A DNA stretch of 36,440 nucleotides from Verrucomicrobiota bacterium. Lineage in GTDB: Bacteria > Verrucomicrobiota > Verrucomicrobiia > Opitutales > UBA2995. Of the stretch, positions 13,401 through 36,440 are shown piece by piece. Position 1 is the first letter of the stretch; each line of letters begins with the position of its first letter. Location of the stretch: positions 1 through 36,440 of the forward strand of contig JAQBYJ010000056.1 of assembly GCA_027622555.1 (NCBI GenBank), read 5' to 3'. The translations under genes and the position numbers were made by a program. The notes under the pieces were generated by a model that had not been told where the DNA came from, ran no database searches, and was given only the letters and a program-made list of their open reading frames with translations.

Positions 13401-14441
13401 CTACCGCTCTTCAGATTCCTGTGGAAGTGGAAATGTTTCCTCTAAAAGCATGATACGATTCTTCAGATCCGGATGAGTAGACATAAGCTCCGGAAGATCC
13501 GCGCCCTCATTTTCTTCATGGATTTTGATAAGAATAGACCTCATTGCTTCGGAGCTTCCATATTTCTCCTGTAACCACTGTCCCGATACGAGGTCGGCTT
13601 CCGTTTCAAATCCACGCGAGTAGCTGTTCTCAATGAGTATGGTCGGTATGGCCGATGCCATGGAAGAAAGGGATGCAAGGTCGCCCAGAAAAGTTGAGAT
13701 AAAAATGAAAATACCTGTATCTCTAAGCACCATTTGCATGGAATGCCGATGGATGATGTGTGCAATTTCGTGAGCGATGACAGCTTGGAATTCTTCCTTT
13801 CCTGAAACAAGGGCTACCAGTGCGTCGGTTGCTACTATGCTCCCATTGGGCAAAGCGAAGGCATTGGCACCTAATTCAGTAGCTCTGAAAAACAAGGTAT
13901 ATGTGTGTTCGCTTTTAAAGTCGTCCGCAATCTCCTCGAACCAGTTTTGATACCTTTCTTGATCTTTTGTCGAAATTTCTGAGGGCTCGAATATGAACCT
14001 ATCCATGGTCTCCAGGGCTCCTTTTCCCAGCTGATCATTCAGTTCAACCGGGATTTTGTGTGCTACTATGAACGCCGCCCACGGAACTCCCCATGTAAAC
14101 AAGGCGGCAGTGAAAGCCACAAGTCCTGACATGCTTGCAATCACCCATCCCCACTTTCTTTCCAGCCAATGAGCCCATTTTAAACCCATTCCGGGATTTA
14201 AGGAATCCTGCAAAGCATCATACGCCTCGAAGTCGTCGGTTTCCAGGCGGCCGTTATCCGGAAGAAGAATTACCCGGCGGGTATTGCCCAGCGGTGCTTC
14301 AAAAATACACGCATTTACGGTATAGGATTTGGTGTCTGTTTGATCCCGGATTTCCAGTTGGATGGCATCTAATATTACGACCTCGACTGTTTTAGCTGCA
14401 GAGGATTGGCCATCATAATACCTGGCTGAAATCCTTGTCAT
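13401..14441 (-). CDS. M48-family membrane metalloprotease
   Basis: The 346-residue protein has a soluble N-terminal domain (1-95), a membrane helix (about 98-127) and an M48 peptidase domain with the zinc motif HEIAH (224-228). A downstream Glu in RGFETEAD (about 276-283) is the expected third ligand. A second hydrophobic stretch (about 242-270) follows the active site. It resembles small membrane Zn proteases of the HtpX/BepA group, which degrade misfolded membrane or envelope proteins. Its start ATG shares a base with the stop of the YjgN-like gene (TAATG), so translation is coupled. The pairing suggests that the two act together, though the substrate is unknown. Confidence 0.9.
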   Translation of the reverse strand: MTRISARYYDGQSSAAKTVEVVILDAIQLEIRDQTDTKSYTVNACIFEAPLGNTRRVILLPDNGRLETDDFEAYDALQDSLNPGMGLKWAHWLERKWGWVIASMSGLVAFTAALFTWGVPWAAFIVAHKIPVELNDQLGKGALETMDRFIFEPSEISTKDQERYQNWFEEIADDFKSEHTYTLFFRATELGANAFALPNGSIVATDALVALVSGKEEFQAVIAHEIAHIIHRHSMQMVLRDTGIFIFISTFLGDLASLSSMASAIPTILIENSYSRGFETEADLVSGQWLQEKYGSSEAMRSILIKIHEENEGADLPELMSTHPDLKNRIMLLEETFPLPQESEER

Positions 14442-15613
14442 TACCCTATATCAAAATCCATATAATCGGCTGCCGCATCGCCCAACGCTCCTTCATTTTC
14501 CATGGCAGCCTGTTCAACTTTTTCGAGTTGATCCTTATCGAGATTAACTAGCAGGTGTGCGACCACATATTTTTTCTTACGGATCGTTGCCCATGGAGTT
14601 GCCAATCCCAAGCTGAAAAATATGGCGAGACCATTAGTGATATCGAGAACAAGAAGTGGCTTCAACTCGTATTCCGATTTGAAGCTGGTCGAAAATCCAA
14701 TATCCGTCACACCCCAGGAGTAGTTTTGGATTCTGGAATAGATCAGCGATTTTCCTATTGCGAATGCCAGGAGCAAAATTAAGTAGCCGATTATCATTGT
14801 ACCAACCATAAACACCTCTCGGATATTCTCCGGAAGTGCGAGGGCTTGGGCCAGCGATATAGGAATAAACACAAAAATGGCCATGGCTATATAACCAAGA
14901 AAACCGATGCCTATGGCTCCCAGGTAGGGCGGATAAAAAGCTCCACCGACTCCTTTAAAATTAAACTTCTGGTTACCAAAGGACAGATTTCGAATTAGAT
15001 ACTCCTTTTTCAAAAACTCGATGTAAGGAACAATGAGTCCAGCGGTAAATGGAATTAAAAGGGCCCAACATAGGTAAAGCACATAGGCCTGTCCCAATTC
15101 TCCCGTAAACTTGAATCGGATATTGCGGAAGGAAGAGTAGCGTGCCCGAAAGCGAATCGCCTTCCAGACCAGGAACGGAAAGGAAAGACCTAGTATGGCG
15201 AGTACCCCTAGCGGAGCAAATGGGTGAATGAAACTACTCAGTCCATAAATAAGTGCTCCTATCACAACGATGATGTACCCTTTGAGGAGCGCGATAGGAT
15301 TGGCGTGAAATCCAAAGTTGTCTTCTCCAAGCCAAGTATTGGCATAGAGGTATTTTCGCTGTCGGACGACTGCCCAGGGAAAGTATATACCAAGAGTTAC
15401 TATGGTTAAAAACAGGTTTACAATCCAGATACGGAAGTATTCTCCAGCATTTCCGGTAAATGACATTCGGAACGTCTCTAGTTCTTTGGGTGGATTGAGG
15501 ACTGTTGGAGGAGTCTGAAGAGGAGGTGGTGTAGCTGGTCGATATTCAGGAGGAGCCCATTTCAAATCATCGTCATCGGGTTCATTGATTGGATCGGTTG
15601 GTTCGTTTGCCAT
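14441..15613 (-). CDS. YjgN/DUF898-family multi-pass membrane protein
   Basis: The 390-residue protein has a proline-rich N-terminal tail (1-45, PPEYRPATPPPLQTPPTV). Repeated DUF898 units follow, each with a membrane helix and a short basic loop: FRIWIVNLFLTIVTLGIYFPWAVVR, then RFRARYSSFRNIRFKFTGELG, and the same plan again further on. About eight hydrophobic segments are visible. DUF898 proteins are uncharacterised inner-membrane proteins. This one is translationally coupled to a membrane M48 protease, an association that may point to envelope quality control. The gene starts 36 bases after the TrmH-type methyltransferase stop. Confidence 0.88.
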   Translation of the reverse strand: MANEPTDPINEPDDDDLKWAPPEYRPATPPPLQTPPTVLNPPKELETFRMSFTGNAGEYFRIWIVNLFLTIVTLGIYFPWAVVRQRKYLYANTWLGEDNFGFHANPIALLKGYIIVVIGALIYGLSSFIHPFAPLGVLAILGLSFPFLVWKAIRFRARYSSFRNIRFKFTGELGQAYVLYLCWALLIPFTAGLIVPYIEFLKKEYLIRNLSFGNQKFNFKGVGGAFYPPYLGAIGIGFLGYIAMAIFVFIPISLAQALALPENIREVFMVGTMIIGYLILLLAFAIGKSLIYSRIQNYSWGVTDIGFSTSFKSEYELKPLLVLDITNGLAIFFSLGLATPWATIRKKKYVVAHLLVNLDKDQLEKVEQAAMENEGALGDAAADYMDFDIG

Positions 15614-31114: not shown

Positions 31115-31150
31115 GTCCCTGTAGTTCAATTGGATAGAACCGTGGTTTCT
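31115..31150 (+). other. 5' half of an Arg-like tRNA, candidate attachment site
   Basis: The order fits a tRNA: acceptor strand GTCCCTG, TA, D-stem GTTC (31124-31127)/GAAC (31137-31140) with loop AATTGGATA, and anticodon 5' stem GTGGT followed by TTCT. Similarity stops in the anticodon loop, and no 3' stem, T-arm or CCA end follows. The break at the anticodon loop, next to an integrase, matches tyrosine-recombinase integration sites. Confidence 0.55.
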
Positions 31151-31270: not shown

Positions 31271-32431
31271 ATGGGACATCTTCGCCAAAGAGGAAACAAA
31301 GGAAATTGGAAAGCTATCTTCAAAGATGGCAATGGGAGGTTTGTTGAGCGGACTACCAAGACCAATAACCTAAAAGAAGCTCAGGAAATTTTAGCTGAAT
31401 GGGAAAAGGCTGCGCGCAAGGCGATACGGGGAGAACTTACACAGGCCCAAGTCATGAAAGTGATGAGCGAGTTGGTTCTTGCCTCGTCTGGAGAAAAGAT
31501 GGCGCGGGAATCGACGAAGGACTTTTTTACTCGTTGGTTGAGAGGCAAGGAAACTCGAAGAGGCCGTTCCACAATCAAACGCTACAAGCCAATTTTAGAT
31601 GGATTTATAGACTCCCTATCGGAACGGCGAGCAAATGCCATTATCGGAAGTGTTTCAGCCATGGAAGTTGCCAAATACATTGAGGAGCAAATCAAGCAGG
31701 GGAAGAGCTACAATACCGCCGACCTTCATCTGAAAGTAATCTCAAGCGTATTTCGAGCAGCGGTAAAGGAGGGTCTAGCCATAGTGAATCCAGCCGATGC
31801 CGTTGAAAGATTTGACCGACCTGCCGAAGAGAGAATCCCGTTCACGGATGAGCAAGTTAGACAATTATTATCTGCCGCAAACGATGAGTGGTATGGCATG
31901 GTGATTCATGCCTATCATATAGGAATCCGCTTGCACGATTGTGCAAACTTGCTCCACCAAAATATCAATTTTGAAGCCCAAAGCCTAACCTTCATCGAAA
32001 GCAAGACAGCAAGCCGGAAGAAAACCCAAAGTCCAGAGACCACAGTATACTTGCACGGGGAAGTCCTCCAATGGCTCAAGAACCGACCGGCTGGCGTTGG
32101 CATGGCTCCACTCTTCCCTTCCCTCCACGGAAAGGCTTCAGGCAGCGCAGGAGGACTATCAAACGCCTTCAACAGACTTATGGATGATGCTGGAGTCGTT
32201 GTGCCGCTAGGTGACAAGAAGGAGGGGAAAGGCCGACAGTTCCGTAAGCTAGGGTTTCACTCACTAAGGCATACTTTTATCAGCCGGCTGGCCAATTCCG
32301 ATGTCTCTATGGATGTTCGGAAAGCTATGGTAGGCCATTCGTCCGATGAAATTCACCGTCGATATACACATTTAGACCTTTCAACTCAAGCGGCTGCTGT
32401 AAACAGGTTGCCCGGGATTCTGGGAAATTAA
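31271..32431 (+). CDS. int: tyrosine-type site-specific recombinase (integrase)
   Basis: The 386-residue protein has an N-terminal arm-binding-like part (1-50), a SAM-like core-binding domain (about 80-175) and a catalytic domain. The catalytic set is R220 (GIRLHD), H330-xx-R333 (HSLRH), H356 (VGHSS) and Y365 (RRYTHLD). It should integrate and excise a mobile element. It sits about 120 bases from the truncated tRNA, at the left end of the element, and reads into it. I see no frameshift or missing residue, so it is likely active. Confidence 0.93.
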   Translation: MGHLRQRGNKGNWKAIFKDGNGRFVERTTKTNNLKEAQEILAEWEKAARKAIRGELTQAQVMKVMSELVLASSGEKMARESTKDFFTRWLRGKETRRGRSTIKRYKPILDGFIDSLSERRANAIIGSVSAMEVAKYIEEQIKQGKSYNTADLHLKVISSVFRAAVKEGLAIVNPADAVERFDRPAEERIPFTDEQVRQLLSAANDEWYGMVIHAYHIGIRLHDCANLLHQNINFEAQSLTFIESKTASRKKTQSPETTVYLHGEVLQWLKNRPAGVGMAPLFPSLHGKASGSAGGLSNAFNRLMDDAGVVVPLGDKKEGKGRQFRKLGFHSLRHTFISRLANSDVSMDVRKAMVGHSSDEIHRRYTHLDLSTQAAAVNRLPGILGN

Positions 32432-32497: not shown

Positions 32498-33265
32498 ATG
32501 AAGAAAAAGAAACCAGACCTTCCACCTGAGGAATGGGCCTTTTTCGTGAAGAAAAAGGAATGGTTGGTGGAAAGCTGCAAACATTGTTGGATTCCAGAGG
32601 AAGAGCTCCTTGCTGCAACACAATTTGAATACACTCGTGTTGCTTATCAGAGAGGTCTTCACCCTTTTACATTTGTTGAGTTTAAAGAGTTTATCACAAC
32701 CCCATATGTTAGTCTTTTGCCAAAGGATAAAAACCTAATTATTCAACGGGTCCAAGGAAAGTGGTCTTCTAGCTACCCGCAGGAACCGGTTAGAATCTTT
32801 GATCCTTATTACTATGATCCTGAGAATGACGAGGAGGTATTTGAGATTTTAATTGATTGGTCCAAGACGCCCGAACAGTTGAAGTTAGCATTTGAAAACC
32901 TAATTGAAAAAATAAAGCCGACAGATGTGAAACCGGAGGGAGGAAGTGGAAATCGGAGATCAGAGCGTGATCTTCTGAGCTTTTTGGCAGCCCTGAGATT
33001 GAAAGAACGATATGGCCCCAGCATTGCACTGTCCAAAATTCACAAAATTCTATCAGTGGAAATACCTGAACGGGTATTTTACGGAAGTTCCGCAACTCTA
33101 ATTAATGCAGCAAATAAAGCGGAAGACTATTTCCAAAAGCGCTTTGCGAAGACACAGATCGTAGACAGACTGGAAAGCATGGATTCAACAAGAGAAAGCA
33201 TTTTTGACAAAAATCCAGAAGATGCTCGTCGAGAATTGCGAAGGATCGGGTTGCTACCACCATAG
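32498..33265 (+). CDS. hypothetical element protein
   Basis: I do not recognise this 255-residue protein. It begins with a Lys-rich stretch (MKKKKPDLP). An N-terminal half rich in Trp, Phe and Tyr holds KHCWIPEEELL and YYYDPENDEEVFEILIDW. A Gly/Ser/Arg linker (about 146-156) precedes a helical C-terminal half (LLSFLAALRLKERYG, IHKILSVEIPERVFYGSSATLINAANKAEDYF). No membrane segment or signal is seen. It lies between int and an AlpA-like gene, a position often held by accessory or regulatory cargo. An inverted repeat follows it (33278-33307). Confidence 0.7.
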   Translation: MKKKKPDLPPEEWAFFVKKKEWLVESCKHCWIPEEELLAATQFEYTRVAYQRGLHPFTFVEFKEFITTPYVSLLPKDKNLIIQRVQGKWSSSYPQEPVRIFDPYYYDPENDEEVFEILIDWSKTPEQLKLAFENLIEKIKPTDVKPEGGSGNRRSERDLLSFLAALRLKERYGPSIALSKIHKILSVEIPERVFYGSSATLINAANKAEDYFQKRFAKTQIVDRLESMDSTRESIFDKNPEDARRELRRIGLLPP

Positions 33266-33277
33266 GATAGTCGGGAG

Positions 33278-33307
33278 ATTCACCGCATAAAAATTATTAT
33301 CCGGTGA
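33278..33307. promoter_or_regulatory. inverted repeat upstream of the AlpA-like gene
   Basis: TTCACCG (33278-33284) and CGGTGAA (33301-33307) are perfect reverse complements around a 16-base AT-rich centre, about 40 bases before the AlpA-like start. This is a candidate operator or Xis site. Confidence 0.45.
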
Positions 33308-33345
33308 ACATAATCGTGGATTTTCTGCGCTTTATATAGTCAGAA

Positions 33346-33693
33346 ATGACGATAACTAACATTAGAAAACATACGCCGGAGATTAACCGGGTTCAAAAAT
33401 CAGGGGAGCAAAACCCTTACACCGGTTTGGCTCAAATTGCCAAACAAGTACCGTCCTTTATACGGCTTCCGAAATCTGGACAACAATGCCCGCACTCAGG
33501 TTACACGAGAAGCGGACTAAATGAATTGATTCTTCCAACTGCAGAGAATCCCAATCCACCCGTCAGGTCCGTGTTGATACGTAAACGAGGAGCGATGCGG
33601 GGAGTACGATTGATTGTGTACGACAGTCTGATGAATTATCTCAACAGCTTCGATGCTCATGGGGAAAAAGTAGTAGAGGAGGTGGCGTTGTGA
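33346..33693 (+). CDS. AlpA/Xis-like DNA-binding protein
   Basis: The 115-residue protein's central part RLPKSGQQCPHSGYTRSGLNELI is a winged-helix-like motif (about 45-67). It is followed by NPPVRSVLIRKRGAMRGVRLIVYDSLMNYL (about 80-109), as in AlpA/excisionase-like regulators of integrated elements. An earlier stretch (NPYTGLAQIAKQVPSFIRL) resembles it weakly, perhaps a degenerate first copy. It probably controls int or excision. Its stop overlaps the next gene's GTG start, so the two are translated together. Confidence 0.7.
   Translation: MTITNIRKHTPEINRVQKSGEQNPYTGLAQIAKQVPSFIRLPKSGQQCPHSGYTRSGLNELILPTAENPNPPVRSVLIRKRGAMRGVRLIVYDSLMNYLNSFDAHGEKVVEEVAL
33677..33684 (+). promoter_or_regulatory. 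strong Shine-Dalgarno deciding the GTG start at 33690
   Basis: AGGAGGTG is a full match to the 16S anti-Shine-Dalgarno core. It lies five bases before the GTG, inside the end of the AlpA-like gene. Confidence 0.75.
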
Positions 33694-34184
33694 AAACTTT
33701 GAAAATCAATAACGATCCTGCCCTAGAAGCTGCCAACATCAGACCAGTCCCAAAGGTATTTGAACGAGAAGGATCATTCCTCCATGAACTAGTCTGGAAA
33801 GATGGACCCTGGGCTATTTACCGCTATCGGTTTATAAAATCTGAGAAGGCAGAACCTCATTGGAAATACGAGGCTGTCATAGTCAGGATTTCGGAACCCC
33901 ATCCAAGAAGCGAAGACCGGAGACTACGTGAAGCCATGCCTTCGAATAGCGACTGGGGGAATTTTGCCTGGTCACTGAACACCATGGAGAAGGCTCAGGA
34001 GCAGATTGCCGACCAACGAATCAATAGAGGTGAAGTAATCGAGTCTAACTACTACTCACACTTCAGGAACAGTGTCGAAAACTCCAAGAACACTGGAGAT
34101 CTAAGTCAAAAGACGACTATACCCCCTTGTGAAGGTATTAAACCCCGTAGCGACAACGCTAATCTAGAAAGGGTTCAGTCATGA
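33690..34184 (+). CDS. hypothetical element protein, coupled
   Basis: I do not recognise this 164-residue protein. The GTG start is chosen by a perfect Shine-Dalgarno. The middle is compact and aromatic (FLHELVWKDGPWAIYRYRF, HWKYEAVIVRI, WGNFAWSLNTMEKAQEQI). The last 40 residues are polar and probably disordered. It shares GTGA with the gene before it and ATGA with the gene after, so the three genes form one coupled operon. The compact middle could bind DNA or a partner, but no family is clear. Confidence 0.75.
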   Translation: MKTLKINNDPALEAANIRPVPKVFEREGSFLHELVWKDGPWAIYRYRFIKSEKAEPHWKYEAVIVRISEPHPRSEDRRLREAMPSNSDWGNFAWSLNTMEKAQEQIADQRINRGEVIESNYYSHFRNSVENSKNTGDLSQKTTIPPCEGIKPRSDNANLERVQS

Positions 34185-34777
34185 TGTTTCCAACTGGCTA
34201 CCGAGGACTAAGCACGTTTCGCACTTTCGCAGAAATGTCAGGATTAGCTCATCCACTTGAAAACGTATTCTCTTTGTATGAGGAGATTCAAATCTCCAAA
34301 TCTGACACGATTCATATCAAAGAACCTGACGACTGGCTGATGCTGCTTGGTGTTACCGAAGAAGAGGTAACGGGTGAACAAATACAGAAGGCCTTACTGC
34401 GTTCCAGAATGATTGAGGCAACTGAAGATCCTCATGCCTTTAAGGCTAAGGAGTTCTGGAAGTTAAACGCAGGCCTAAAAGCTAACAGAACCAATGGCAA
34501 ACTTGGAGGAGCTAAGAAACATAAGAAAAGAACTCATGAAGAAACAAAGGAATCTACAAAAGAAATAAAGAAGGAACTTACAGAAGAACCTATCAATAGA
34601 CAAAGAGATGAAGGAAGTAATGAACTAACAAAAGAAGGAAGGAATGGATTAACAAATGAAGGAATTAATGAACGAATGAATGGACGGGTAACCAACGGGC
34701 AATCTACGGGTAACCCATGGGTAACCCATGGGAATGAACCATTCGTTCCGACTGATTGGGAAAAATATTCTCGGTAA
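34181..34777 (+). CDS. hypothetical element protein with octapeptide repeats
   Basis: The N-terminal half of this 198-residue protein (FSLYEEIQISKSDTIHIKEPDDWLMLLGV, ALLRSRMIEATEDPHAFKAKEFWKLNAGLKANRTNGKLGG) looks helical and is reminiscent of small phage or element replication-associated proteins, which is a weak analogy. A Lys/Arg-rich segment (about 112-118) follows, then a Glu/Lys/Thr-rich tail with three diverged eight-residue units (SNELTKEG, RNGLTNEG, INERMNGR). The start overlaps the previous stop (ATGA). A second in-frame ATG at 34184 is equally possible. The ParB-domain gene follows within 20 bases. Confidence 0.72.
   Translation: MMFPTGYRGLSTFRTFAEMSGLAHPLENVFSLYEEIQISKSDTIHIKEPDDWLMLLGVTEEEVTGEQIQKALLRSRMIEATEDPHAFKAKEFWKLNAGLKANRTNGKLGGAKKHKKRTHEETKESTKEIKKELTEEPINRQRDEGSNELTKEGRNGLTNEGINERMNGRVTNGQSTGNPWVTHGNEPFVPTDWEKYSR
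34616..34687 (+). repeat. three 24-bp tandem units encoding octapeptides
   Basis: The first two units share AACAAA and GAAGGA at the same places. The third is more diverged. The period keeps the reading frame. Confidence 0.6.
34711..34732 (+). repeat. 11-bp tandem direct repeat
   Basis: TAACCCATGGG occurs at 34711-34721 and again at 34722-34732. Each copy contains the palindrome CCCATGGG. The period of 11 does not keep the reading frame. Confidence 0.7.
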
Positions 34778-34795
34778 GCTCCTAACCCACGAACA

Positions 34796-35674
34796 ATGAA
34801 ATTTGTTGTACGCAAAGAATTTAAAGACCTGATACCACCGTCATCAGATGATGAGTCGGCTGGACTTGAGAAAAGTATTCTTAATGAAGGTTGTAGAGAT
34901 CCTCTTGTCCTCTGGTTTGATGAGGAGGAGGGGGAGCACTTCCTGATTGATGGCCATCAACGTTACGAGATAATTCAGAGGCTCGGTTTAAAGCATTATC
35001 AGACAAAAGTAATAAAACTACCCAAGGGTATGGAGCCCGAAGAGTGGATTGTGGAGAATCAATTCTCTCGTCGTAATCTGGATACCTATCAGCGGGCGAA
35101 TCTGTTTTTGAAACTGAAACCAGTATTGGCGGCTAAGGCAGAATTTAGACGAGCCACAGGATATTTTGGCTCTAAGAATGAGAAGCCTCCTACGGTGTTG
35201 ATGAATTCATCTACTCCTGCAAACACTGGGCTAGAGGCCGATTCACAGGATTTGTCCGTTCCTGCTGAAGAGGTGGGTGCTACCCGTAAGATGATTGCTC
35301 AAAAAGCGGGTGTCTCGGAAGACTCTGTAAGAAAGGCCGAGATTATCAATAACTCTGGAGACGAGGAGATAATCGCAAAGGCGAACGCTGGAGAAATTAG
35401 CCTGAATAAAGCCTACAAGGCGGTTACTAAACCTGAACAGCTCTCGATGGTGGACAGGTGGAAACCGGATACCTTCAAGCCTAAGATACTCGGAGAGGAA
35501 AAAGATAAGATCTGGTATGAAAAGTTCCGTAATTATCTTAGTAGTAAGATAGCCACGGCAAAGAATCGGAGAGATAACGAGATGTTGAAAAGAGAGGAAC
35601 AGATAGAGGCCGAACTCACCTTGTTTGTTTTGCGGGATGTCATACGGAAGCTAACCGAATTCAAACCGAAATAA
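34796..35674 (+). CDS. ParB-like DNA-binding protein
   Basis: The 292-residue protein has a ParB N-terminal domain (about 5-95) with IDGHQRYEI (51-59, the DGxxR nucleotide-binding signature) and ENQFSRRNLDTYQRAN (87-102). A KorB-like helix-turn-helix follows (about 163-210, MIAQKAGVSEDSVRKAEII then AGEISLNKAYKAV), then a charged C-terminal helix. ParB proteins bind parS and aid segregation, and related element proteins act as regulators. No ParA is seen in the window, so partition by this gene alone is uncertain. The DNA downstream is rich in inverted repeats that could be its binding sites. Confidence 0.86.
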   Translation: MKFVVRKEFKDLIPPSSDDESAGLEKSILNEGCRDPLVLWFDEEEGEHFLIDGHQRYEIIQRLGLKHYQTKVIKLPKGMEPEEWIVENQFSRRNLDTYQRANLFLKLKPVLAAKAEFRRATGYFGSKNEKPPTVLMNSSTPANTGLEADSQDLSVPAEEVGATRKMIAQKAGVSEDSVRKAEIINNSGDEEIIAKANAGEISLNKAYKAVTKPEQLSMVDRWKPDTFKPKILGEEKDKIWYEKFRNYLSSKIATAKNRRDNEMLKREEQIEAELTLFVLRDVIRKLTEFKPK

Positions 35675-35754
35675 AGGTTATGCAAGGTCTTGAACGAAAC
35701 TAACTTAATATACTTTTCAGCTTGGTAGGGCCATCACTGAACGTGGGACAAAAA

Positions 35755-35772
35755 TACAGTGAATCTACTGTA
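35755..35772. promoter_or_regulatory. inverted repeat, candidate operator or parS
   Basis: TACAGT (35755-35760) and ACTGTA (35767-35772) are perfect arms around GAATCT, about 80 bases after the ParB-like gene. Confidence 0.4.
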
Positions 35773-35781
35773 ATTAATAAG

Positions 35782-35812
35782 GTGTTAATACTATAATATG
35801 AGCGATTAACAC
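35782..35812. promoter_or_regulatory. inverted repeat, candidate operator or parS
   Basis: GTGTTAAT (35782-35789) and ATTAACAC (35805-35812) are perfect eight-base arms around an AT-rich centre. Confidence 0.4.
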
Positions 35813-35894
35813 TCTACTTAAATCAGGGTAATCCAACGTATCTCCAATCGAGTCATGGAGTTGCTAAGTATAATATTTTAAGTGCCCTCAGAAG

Positions 35895-36203
35895 GCCCCT
35901 TTTGAACTACGAGGTATATGTTCTAATGCATTACTGAGTGCAACGACCCTGGCCTGGGTTAAGGACAGACCAGCTCTTTAAGCACAGTCTGAAAATGATA
36001 TAAGCGCTCAGGATTGGTGAGCTGAATCTCCTGCTAGTTTGTATAGCTTCCGGTTGCAATTACCTACCTAATTGATAGGGTACAGAGGTGTTAAATCCAT
36101 AGCCCTTAATTGGGCTGAGAAGAGTGAGGGTTGCTGATTGAGGAATTGCAACCAACACATTAGCCCCAAGTGACAAGGGGTAGTTGCTTGGGGCGTTTCT
36201 TTG
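35895..36203 (+). ncRNA. candidate structured RNA with intrinsic terminator
   Basis: The plus strand can form a chain of stems: CAGAC/GTCTG (35966-35991), GCTCA/TGAGC (36006-36022), a long-range perfect GGTTGCAATT/AATTGCAACC (36052-36061 with 36144-36153), and AGCCC/GGGCT inside it (36101-36116). Last comes GCCCCAAG/CTTGGGGC (36163-36194). The 5' boundary is a guess. No known RNA family is recognised. Confidence 0.4.
36163..36203 (+). terminator. intrinsic terminator of the candidate RNA
   Basis: The perfect eight-base stem GCCCCAAG (36163-36170)/CTTGGGGC (36187-36194) is followed by GTTTCTTTG. The loop of 16 bases is long but contains AAGGGG, which may compete for pairing. Confidence 0.55.
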
Positions 36204-36209
36204 CCGGAG

Positions 36210-36233: not shown

Positions 36234-36294
36234 CTGATACGGGATAATTTCCTTGCCCATAAGTCACATACAATTAATCTTCTAGTGTAGTGCG

Positions 36295-36440
36295 TCAAGC
36301 AGTCTGTAACATATCAAGCTTTGCTCGAGCACGCTTTACTTTTTCCAGAATGTCCTTCGCGCTGGCGGTCCAGACGAAGGGTTTGGGGGCTGCGTTGTGT
36401 TGCTCAATGTAGTTGTTGATTGTGTCGATGAGTTCTGGAA
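36295..36440 (-). CDS. IS630-type transposase, C-terminal part
   Basis: The frame runs off the right edge and ends at TGA (36297-36295). The visible 47 residues include IDTINNYIEQHNAAPKPFVW, then TASAKDILEKVKRARAKLD. This is the characteristic end of IS630-family DDE transposases (xxHNxxPKPFVWTxxAxxIL). The catalytic D/D/E residues are outside the window. It faces into the integrated element from the right. Whether the IS sits inside the element or marks its decay cannot be told. I cannot place the terminal inverted repeat. Confidence 0.82.
   Translation of the reverse strand, partial: PELIDTINNYIEQHNAAPKPFVWTASAKDILEKVKRARAKLDMLQTA

Follow-up and report, generated by a model that had tools for sequence, protein, structure and literature searches.

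A putative small RNA gene with two sibling copies, near a ParB-like gene on a probable integrative element in a Verrucomicrobiota genome

The plus-strand segment 36050-36205 of the window (the whole 36,440-nt stretch analysed here, contig C56 of a 6.0-Mb genome) is probably the gene of a small non-coding RNA, with a putative promoter of its own, an intrinsic terminator and two chromosomal sister genes, the present copy being carried on an element integrated at a tRNA-Arg(CCT) gene. A probability of roughly two in three is attached to this reading, which is built on the observed copies, pairing, strand and terminator of the RNA, and which would imply that the RNA is transcribed, stable and active as a regulatory RNA. 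The three copies would probably form a new family of a conventional kind, that of multi-copy sRNAs ending at an intrinsic terminator. To our knowledge, small RNAs have been little mapped in this bacterial group. A family of three, one of them carried by a mobile element, is a testable candidate for mobile DNA that shares or borrows the RNA regulators of its host; apart from this aspect the gene is of a conventional kind.

The structured core

A preliminary description, made from the sequence alone, had treated the whole of 35675-36203 as an inverted-repeat-rich segment with a possible structured RNA. The perfect stems that it listed are present, and perfect inverted repeats (arms ≥6, spacers ≤20) are well above chance in this segment, with six seen against a shuffled mean of 1.8, a count matched in none of 60 dinucleotide shuffles. 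The excess sits in 36050-36203 and is not spread over the segment. Within 36050-36203 the number of 8-bp arms (with spacers ≤100) and the presence of a 10-bp arm were reached by no shuffle; the counts for 35675-36049 were equalled in 13-46 of 100 shuffles and are not unusual. Fold z-scores against shuffles were -2.2 for 35675-36203, -0.68 for 35675-36049 and -3.46 for 36050-36205, and only 1 of 200 shuffles folded as well as the last of these. The structured core is about 155 nt long (36050-36205) and is preceded by ordinary AT-rich intergenic DNA (35675-36049), which extends from the ParB-like gene to the RNA. The proposal of a structured RNA survives for the core, where it is supported by the paralogues, compensatory changes, strand-specific U-G pairs and conserved terminator described below, and fails for the 529-nt extent originally given. 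No similarity to 35675-36049 was detected in 53 related genomes, phages or plasmids, and a DNA similarity search against phages and plasmids returned no matches. No convincing coding frame was found in 35675-36203, as had been claimed.

Three hairpins make up the core, whose outer limits are 36050 and 36205 and whose 5' end was placed between about 36050 and 36098. Hairpin P1 (36101-36116, AGCCC-TTAATT-GGGCT) is followed by P2 (36124-36158), in which the arms GGTTGC/GCAACC and GATT/AATT with outer GTG/CAC pairs form part of the centroid fold. The third hairpin (36163-36203), identified by a terminator scan, resembles an intrinsic terminator; it contains the eight-base stem noted in the preliminary description (36163-36170/36187-36194), which extends to 12 pairs when U-G pairs are included and is followed by the T-rich tail GTTTCTTTG. 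The perfect 10-bp stem closing a 102-base domain was also confirmed, at 36052-36061/36144-36153. This long-range stem (spanning 36052-36153 on the plus strand) is an alternative that rivals P2 for residues 36144-36153. In one of the two paralogous copies (C44) it retains nine pairs with one compensatory change, whereas the other (C144) keeps only about half of its pairs, and the stem would for this reason appear to be optional at best.

Sibling copies, pairing and strand

A DNA search of the window's own genome showed that the 3' third of the segment occurs twice more, at C144:3863-4000 (minus strand) and C44:3235-3344 (plus strand), with about 75% identity and E values of 8e-17 and 9e-10. The three copies align from GGTTGCAAT, which lies at a steady 49-51 nt from P1, to TTTCTTTGC, and all of them contain the box GCCCTTAATTGGGCTGRGA, P2 and a terminator hairpin that runs into the TTTCTTTGC tail. 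The 19-base box (36102-36120) overlaps P1 and is 95-100% identical between copies, which differ there at a single variable base; the five pairs of P1 are kept in 3/3 copies. Across six genomes of the genus, and with up to two mismatches allowed, the box occurs exactly three times, each time in this genome. Among the copies of this genome, similarity takes in at least 60 nt ahead of the terminator, the box included, and reaches the last base of the T-rich tail; past 36205 identity drops to 0-29%, which is background.

In the three-copy alignment, standard pairs occupy 89-90% of cells, compared with 27-51% when the partners are slid; for the structure made of P1, P2 and the terminator the figures are 89% and 34-48%. 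The terminator hairpin, which is kept with its tail in all three copies, shows three compensatory changes, and P2 shows one (C-G to U-A) together with several one-sided changes. Covariation had been proposed in the preliminary description as a check on the RNA. Changes on both sides were observed at four pairs and exceed the slid controls, but shuffling of the 3' letters gave as many in 13-68 of 500 trials, a modest result that reflects the presence of only three sequences; the covariation among the copies is suggestive and not decisive alone. The U-G pairs of the terminator and P2 (for example, alignment columns 189/206 and 190/205) would become A-C mismatches on the opposite strand and fit the plus strand only.

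The contexts of the three copies are unrelated. The C144 copy follows an nrdA-like gene (a name judged by eye from the translation) whose own terminator-like hairpin precedes the RNA by about 100 nt, and the C44 copy comes after the start of a gene that is transcribed divergently. Both neighbourhoods lack an integrase and a ParB-like gene. With its two closest relatives chromosomal and without such neighbours, the earlier suggestion that the RNA controls copy number, incompatibility or excision is not supported. C144 and C44 also share a block of ~185 bp, located 390-725 bp downstream of the RNA, with 81% identity; in C44 this block is the leader of a DUF6090-type gene.

The surrounding element and relatives in other genomes

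The 5' half of a tRNA-Arg(CCT) gene, matching the intact tRNA-Arg(cct) of two sister genomes (G003 and G004), lies at 31115-31149 on the plus strand and constitutes the left attachment site. It is the sole such 5' half in this genome; no intact tRNA-Arg(CCT) copy was found in the assembly, and ARAGORN called no tRNA in the window. The same gene is similarly split in another genome of the genus (G002, L038). Intact in sister genomes and split both here and in G002, tRNA-Arg(CCT) is thus a repeated integration target in the genus. A tyrosine integrase gene (31271-32431, plus strand; Pfam Phage_integrase, E 5e-19) begins 120 bp from the 5' half, the arrangement of a tRNA-targeted integrative element. 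It is followed on the same strand by genes for four element proteins of 255, 115, 164 and 198 aa (32498-34777), none of which was convincingly matched in Pfam, PHROGs or NCBIfam, and by the ParB-like gene (34796-35674, plus strand; PHROG ParB-like partition nuclease, E 3e-11). Relatives of the ParB-like protein are plasmid or phage proteins described as 'replication/partition related protein', with 24-38% identity; none was found in 177 genomes of the order or in viral contigs, which leaves no homologous elements in which the 5' part of the segment could be tested. No prophage structural genes were seen.

Beyond the RNA, the 3' end of an insertion sequence (36286-36440, minus strand), assigned by eye to a DDE-type transposase, runs into the contig break. 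Its 47-aa transposase fragment has no Pfam match, and eight other partial copies in the genome start at or just before the base corresponding to 36286. The right end of the element (attR) is absent from the contig, and no tRNA-Arg 3' half was found in the genome. Because the integrase gene and the split tRNA both lie to its left, the RNA is most likely situated inside the integrative element, as had been proposed; with attR absent from the contig, its position supports this placement and does not prove it.

Sister genomes G001 and G002 carry similar terminators. The G001 relative scored 44 bits with a model built without it and is oriented away from its neighbour gene. It has AAATTGATAGAATTTTA upstream in common with C44, and in G001 this sequence forms TTGATA-N17-TATAGA ahead of the RNA; the locus is a probable homologue. 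Neither the C44 nor the G001 copy has a same-strand upstream gene able to supply its transcript. The G002 relative (37 bits) is short, comes immediately after a gene of the same strand and could be just a terminator. Terminators of unrelated bacteria, ordinary GCCCC..GGGGC-TTTCTTTG hairpins picked by pattern, reached 31-34 bits with the same model, and weaker matches were for that reason left uncounted. These comprised a second locus in G001 and loci in G005 and G002 (C61, C500, C626), all no better than the unrelated terminators.

Full-length copies were found in this genome alone, a covariance search of 177 genomes of the order included, and selection on the RNA therefore has no long record. 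Beyond the genus that search gave only weak matches at three loci (E 0.03-0.04), two of which are self-complementary at the match. Pattern scans of GTDB and IMG/VR returned mainly terminators of unrelated bacteria. At the gathering cut-off, Rfam, whose families include 6S, tmRNA, SRP, RNase P and riboswitches, had no match to the window or the related loci, and up to E 5 only a chance match (E 4).

Several other features were observed at the loci examined. DUF6090-type membrane protein genes are frequent among those of the genus (L027, L028, L029, L021, L025). Such a gene or its leader lies downstream of the RNA at three of five loci, but genes of this type are found at other places in these loci too, and no link with the RNA is proposed. 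In G002 (L024, L025, L026), a near-identical sequence of 100-220 bp with a terminator-like hairpin is found at or near several contig ends; it is another multi-copy structured repeat, for which kinship to the RNA is not claimed. In G001 and G005, a syntenic block with 80% identity has at its edge an orthologous hairpin between genes (GCCTCAAGAGGTTAGGGGTAGCCTCTTGAGGC; L022 8063-8156, L023 11089-11199), which is possibly another RNA or a terminator.

The proposed RNA and its alternatives

The small RNA gene would produce a transcript of ~110-155 nt that starts at a putative promoter of its own, forms hairpins P1 and P2 besides that of the terminator, and ends at the terminator (36163-36203). A start near 36090 would give a three-hairpin molecule of ~110 nt, corresponding to the centroid fold; a start near 36050 might allow the long stem to rival P2. 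No convincing -35/-10 or sigma-70 consensus was found before the window copy. The invariant P1 loop and the purine-rich linker (UUAAUUGGGCUGRGA) may contact a target mRNA or protein, and the diverged arm of P2 may give each copy its own specificity. No significant antisense target was found in the window, the best duplex with a start region (14441-15613) being one of which 0.12 are expected by chance. A more specific and rather doubtful proposal is that the element uses its own diverged version of a host regulatory RNA to compete with or imitate the two chromosomal siblings, the shared P1 box denoting a common partner and the altered P2 its own targets. Such a molecule might also act as an RNA switch, with 36144-36153 pairing alternatively with 36052-36061 or with the P2 arm.

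The RNA shares its strand with the gene row 32498-35674, whose last gene is the ParB-like one, and the core could be only the terminator and structured 3' untranslated region of that row, its resemblance to the other copies reflecting a terminator style of the genus. The ordinary terminators of unrelated bacteria that score 31-34 bits, and the short G002 relative straight behind a same-strand gene, are compatible with this explanation, which is nevertheless considered unlikely. The likeness between copies begins at least 60 nt before the terminator and takes in the near-invariant 19-base box, 375 nt separate the ParB-like stop codon from the RNA, and none of the C44, C144 and G001 copies forms the 3' end of a gene on its own strand. 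Moreover, the style is rare, with only six sites in six genomes of the genus when two mismatches are allowed. It is considerably less probable that the segment acts as DNA, as the partition or origin region suggested in the preliminary description, even though its neighbour encodes a ParB-like protein. The two palindromes described earlier, on which such a parS-like or replication site might depend, are present (TACAGTGAATCTACTGTA at 35755-35772 and GTGTTAAT..ATTAACAC at 35782-35812) but do not exceed the level expected from shuffles; they are possible operators, in a position that would suit regulation of the intergenic region. No iterons were found and no parA was seen among the element proteins, whereas a plasmid partition site has repeated palindromic or iteron boxes beside parA-parB. 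The two palindromes lie outside the conserved part, and the paralogues have no ParB-like gene nearby.

Three diverged copies within one genome might also be expected of an old non-autonomous DNA repeat of the MITE or REP type with incidental hairpins. This is a highly improbable origin, given that no terminal inverted repeats were seen, similarity stops at the terminator tail, the copies number only three, and compensatory changes and strand-specific U-G pairs are present. Hardly any credence is given to a short coding sequence or leader peptide such as the TTG-initiated MLIEELQPTH ahead of the terminator: in-frame 10-codon ORFs occur in two of the three copies, but a one-base deletion in the third removes the stop codon, the differences are mainly non-synonymous and there is no consistent ribosome-binding site.

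Some known RNAs resemble the proposed small RNA in part. The CI RNA of satellite phage P4 is an element-encoded immunity RNA that arises by processing of its operon's leader. It is likewise a small structured RNA from an integrative element; unlike it, the window RNA has chromosomal siblings, which argue against a role in immunity only. Sponges of the CsrB/RsmY type are similarly small and hairpin-rich, with some GGA motifs in loops, whereas the window copy has only one GGA. CsrA/RsmA was found in none of six genomes of the genus, this one included, with search controls giving signal, and because of this a CsrB-type sponge of CsrA seems unlikely. The sibling sRNAs OmrA and OmrB are encoded by adjacent genes and are Hfq-dependent. 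They differ in sequence from the window RNA and resemble it in being paralogous sRNAs of one genome with conserved and diverged parts and an intrinsic terminator (PMC12692685). The prophage Pas sRNAs of Escherichia coli are likewise encoded on mobile DNA, vary in copy number and have kin at other places (PMC13192938). They belong to another phylum and show no sequence link to the window RNA, which has chromosomal genes as its closest relatives and around which no prophage structural genes were seen.
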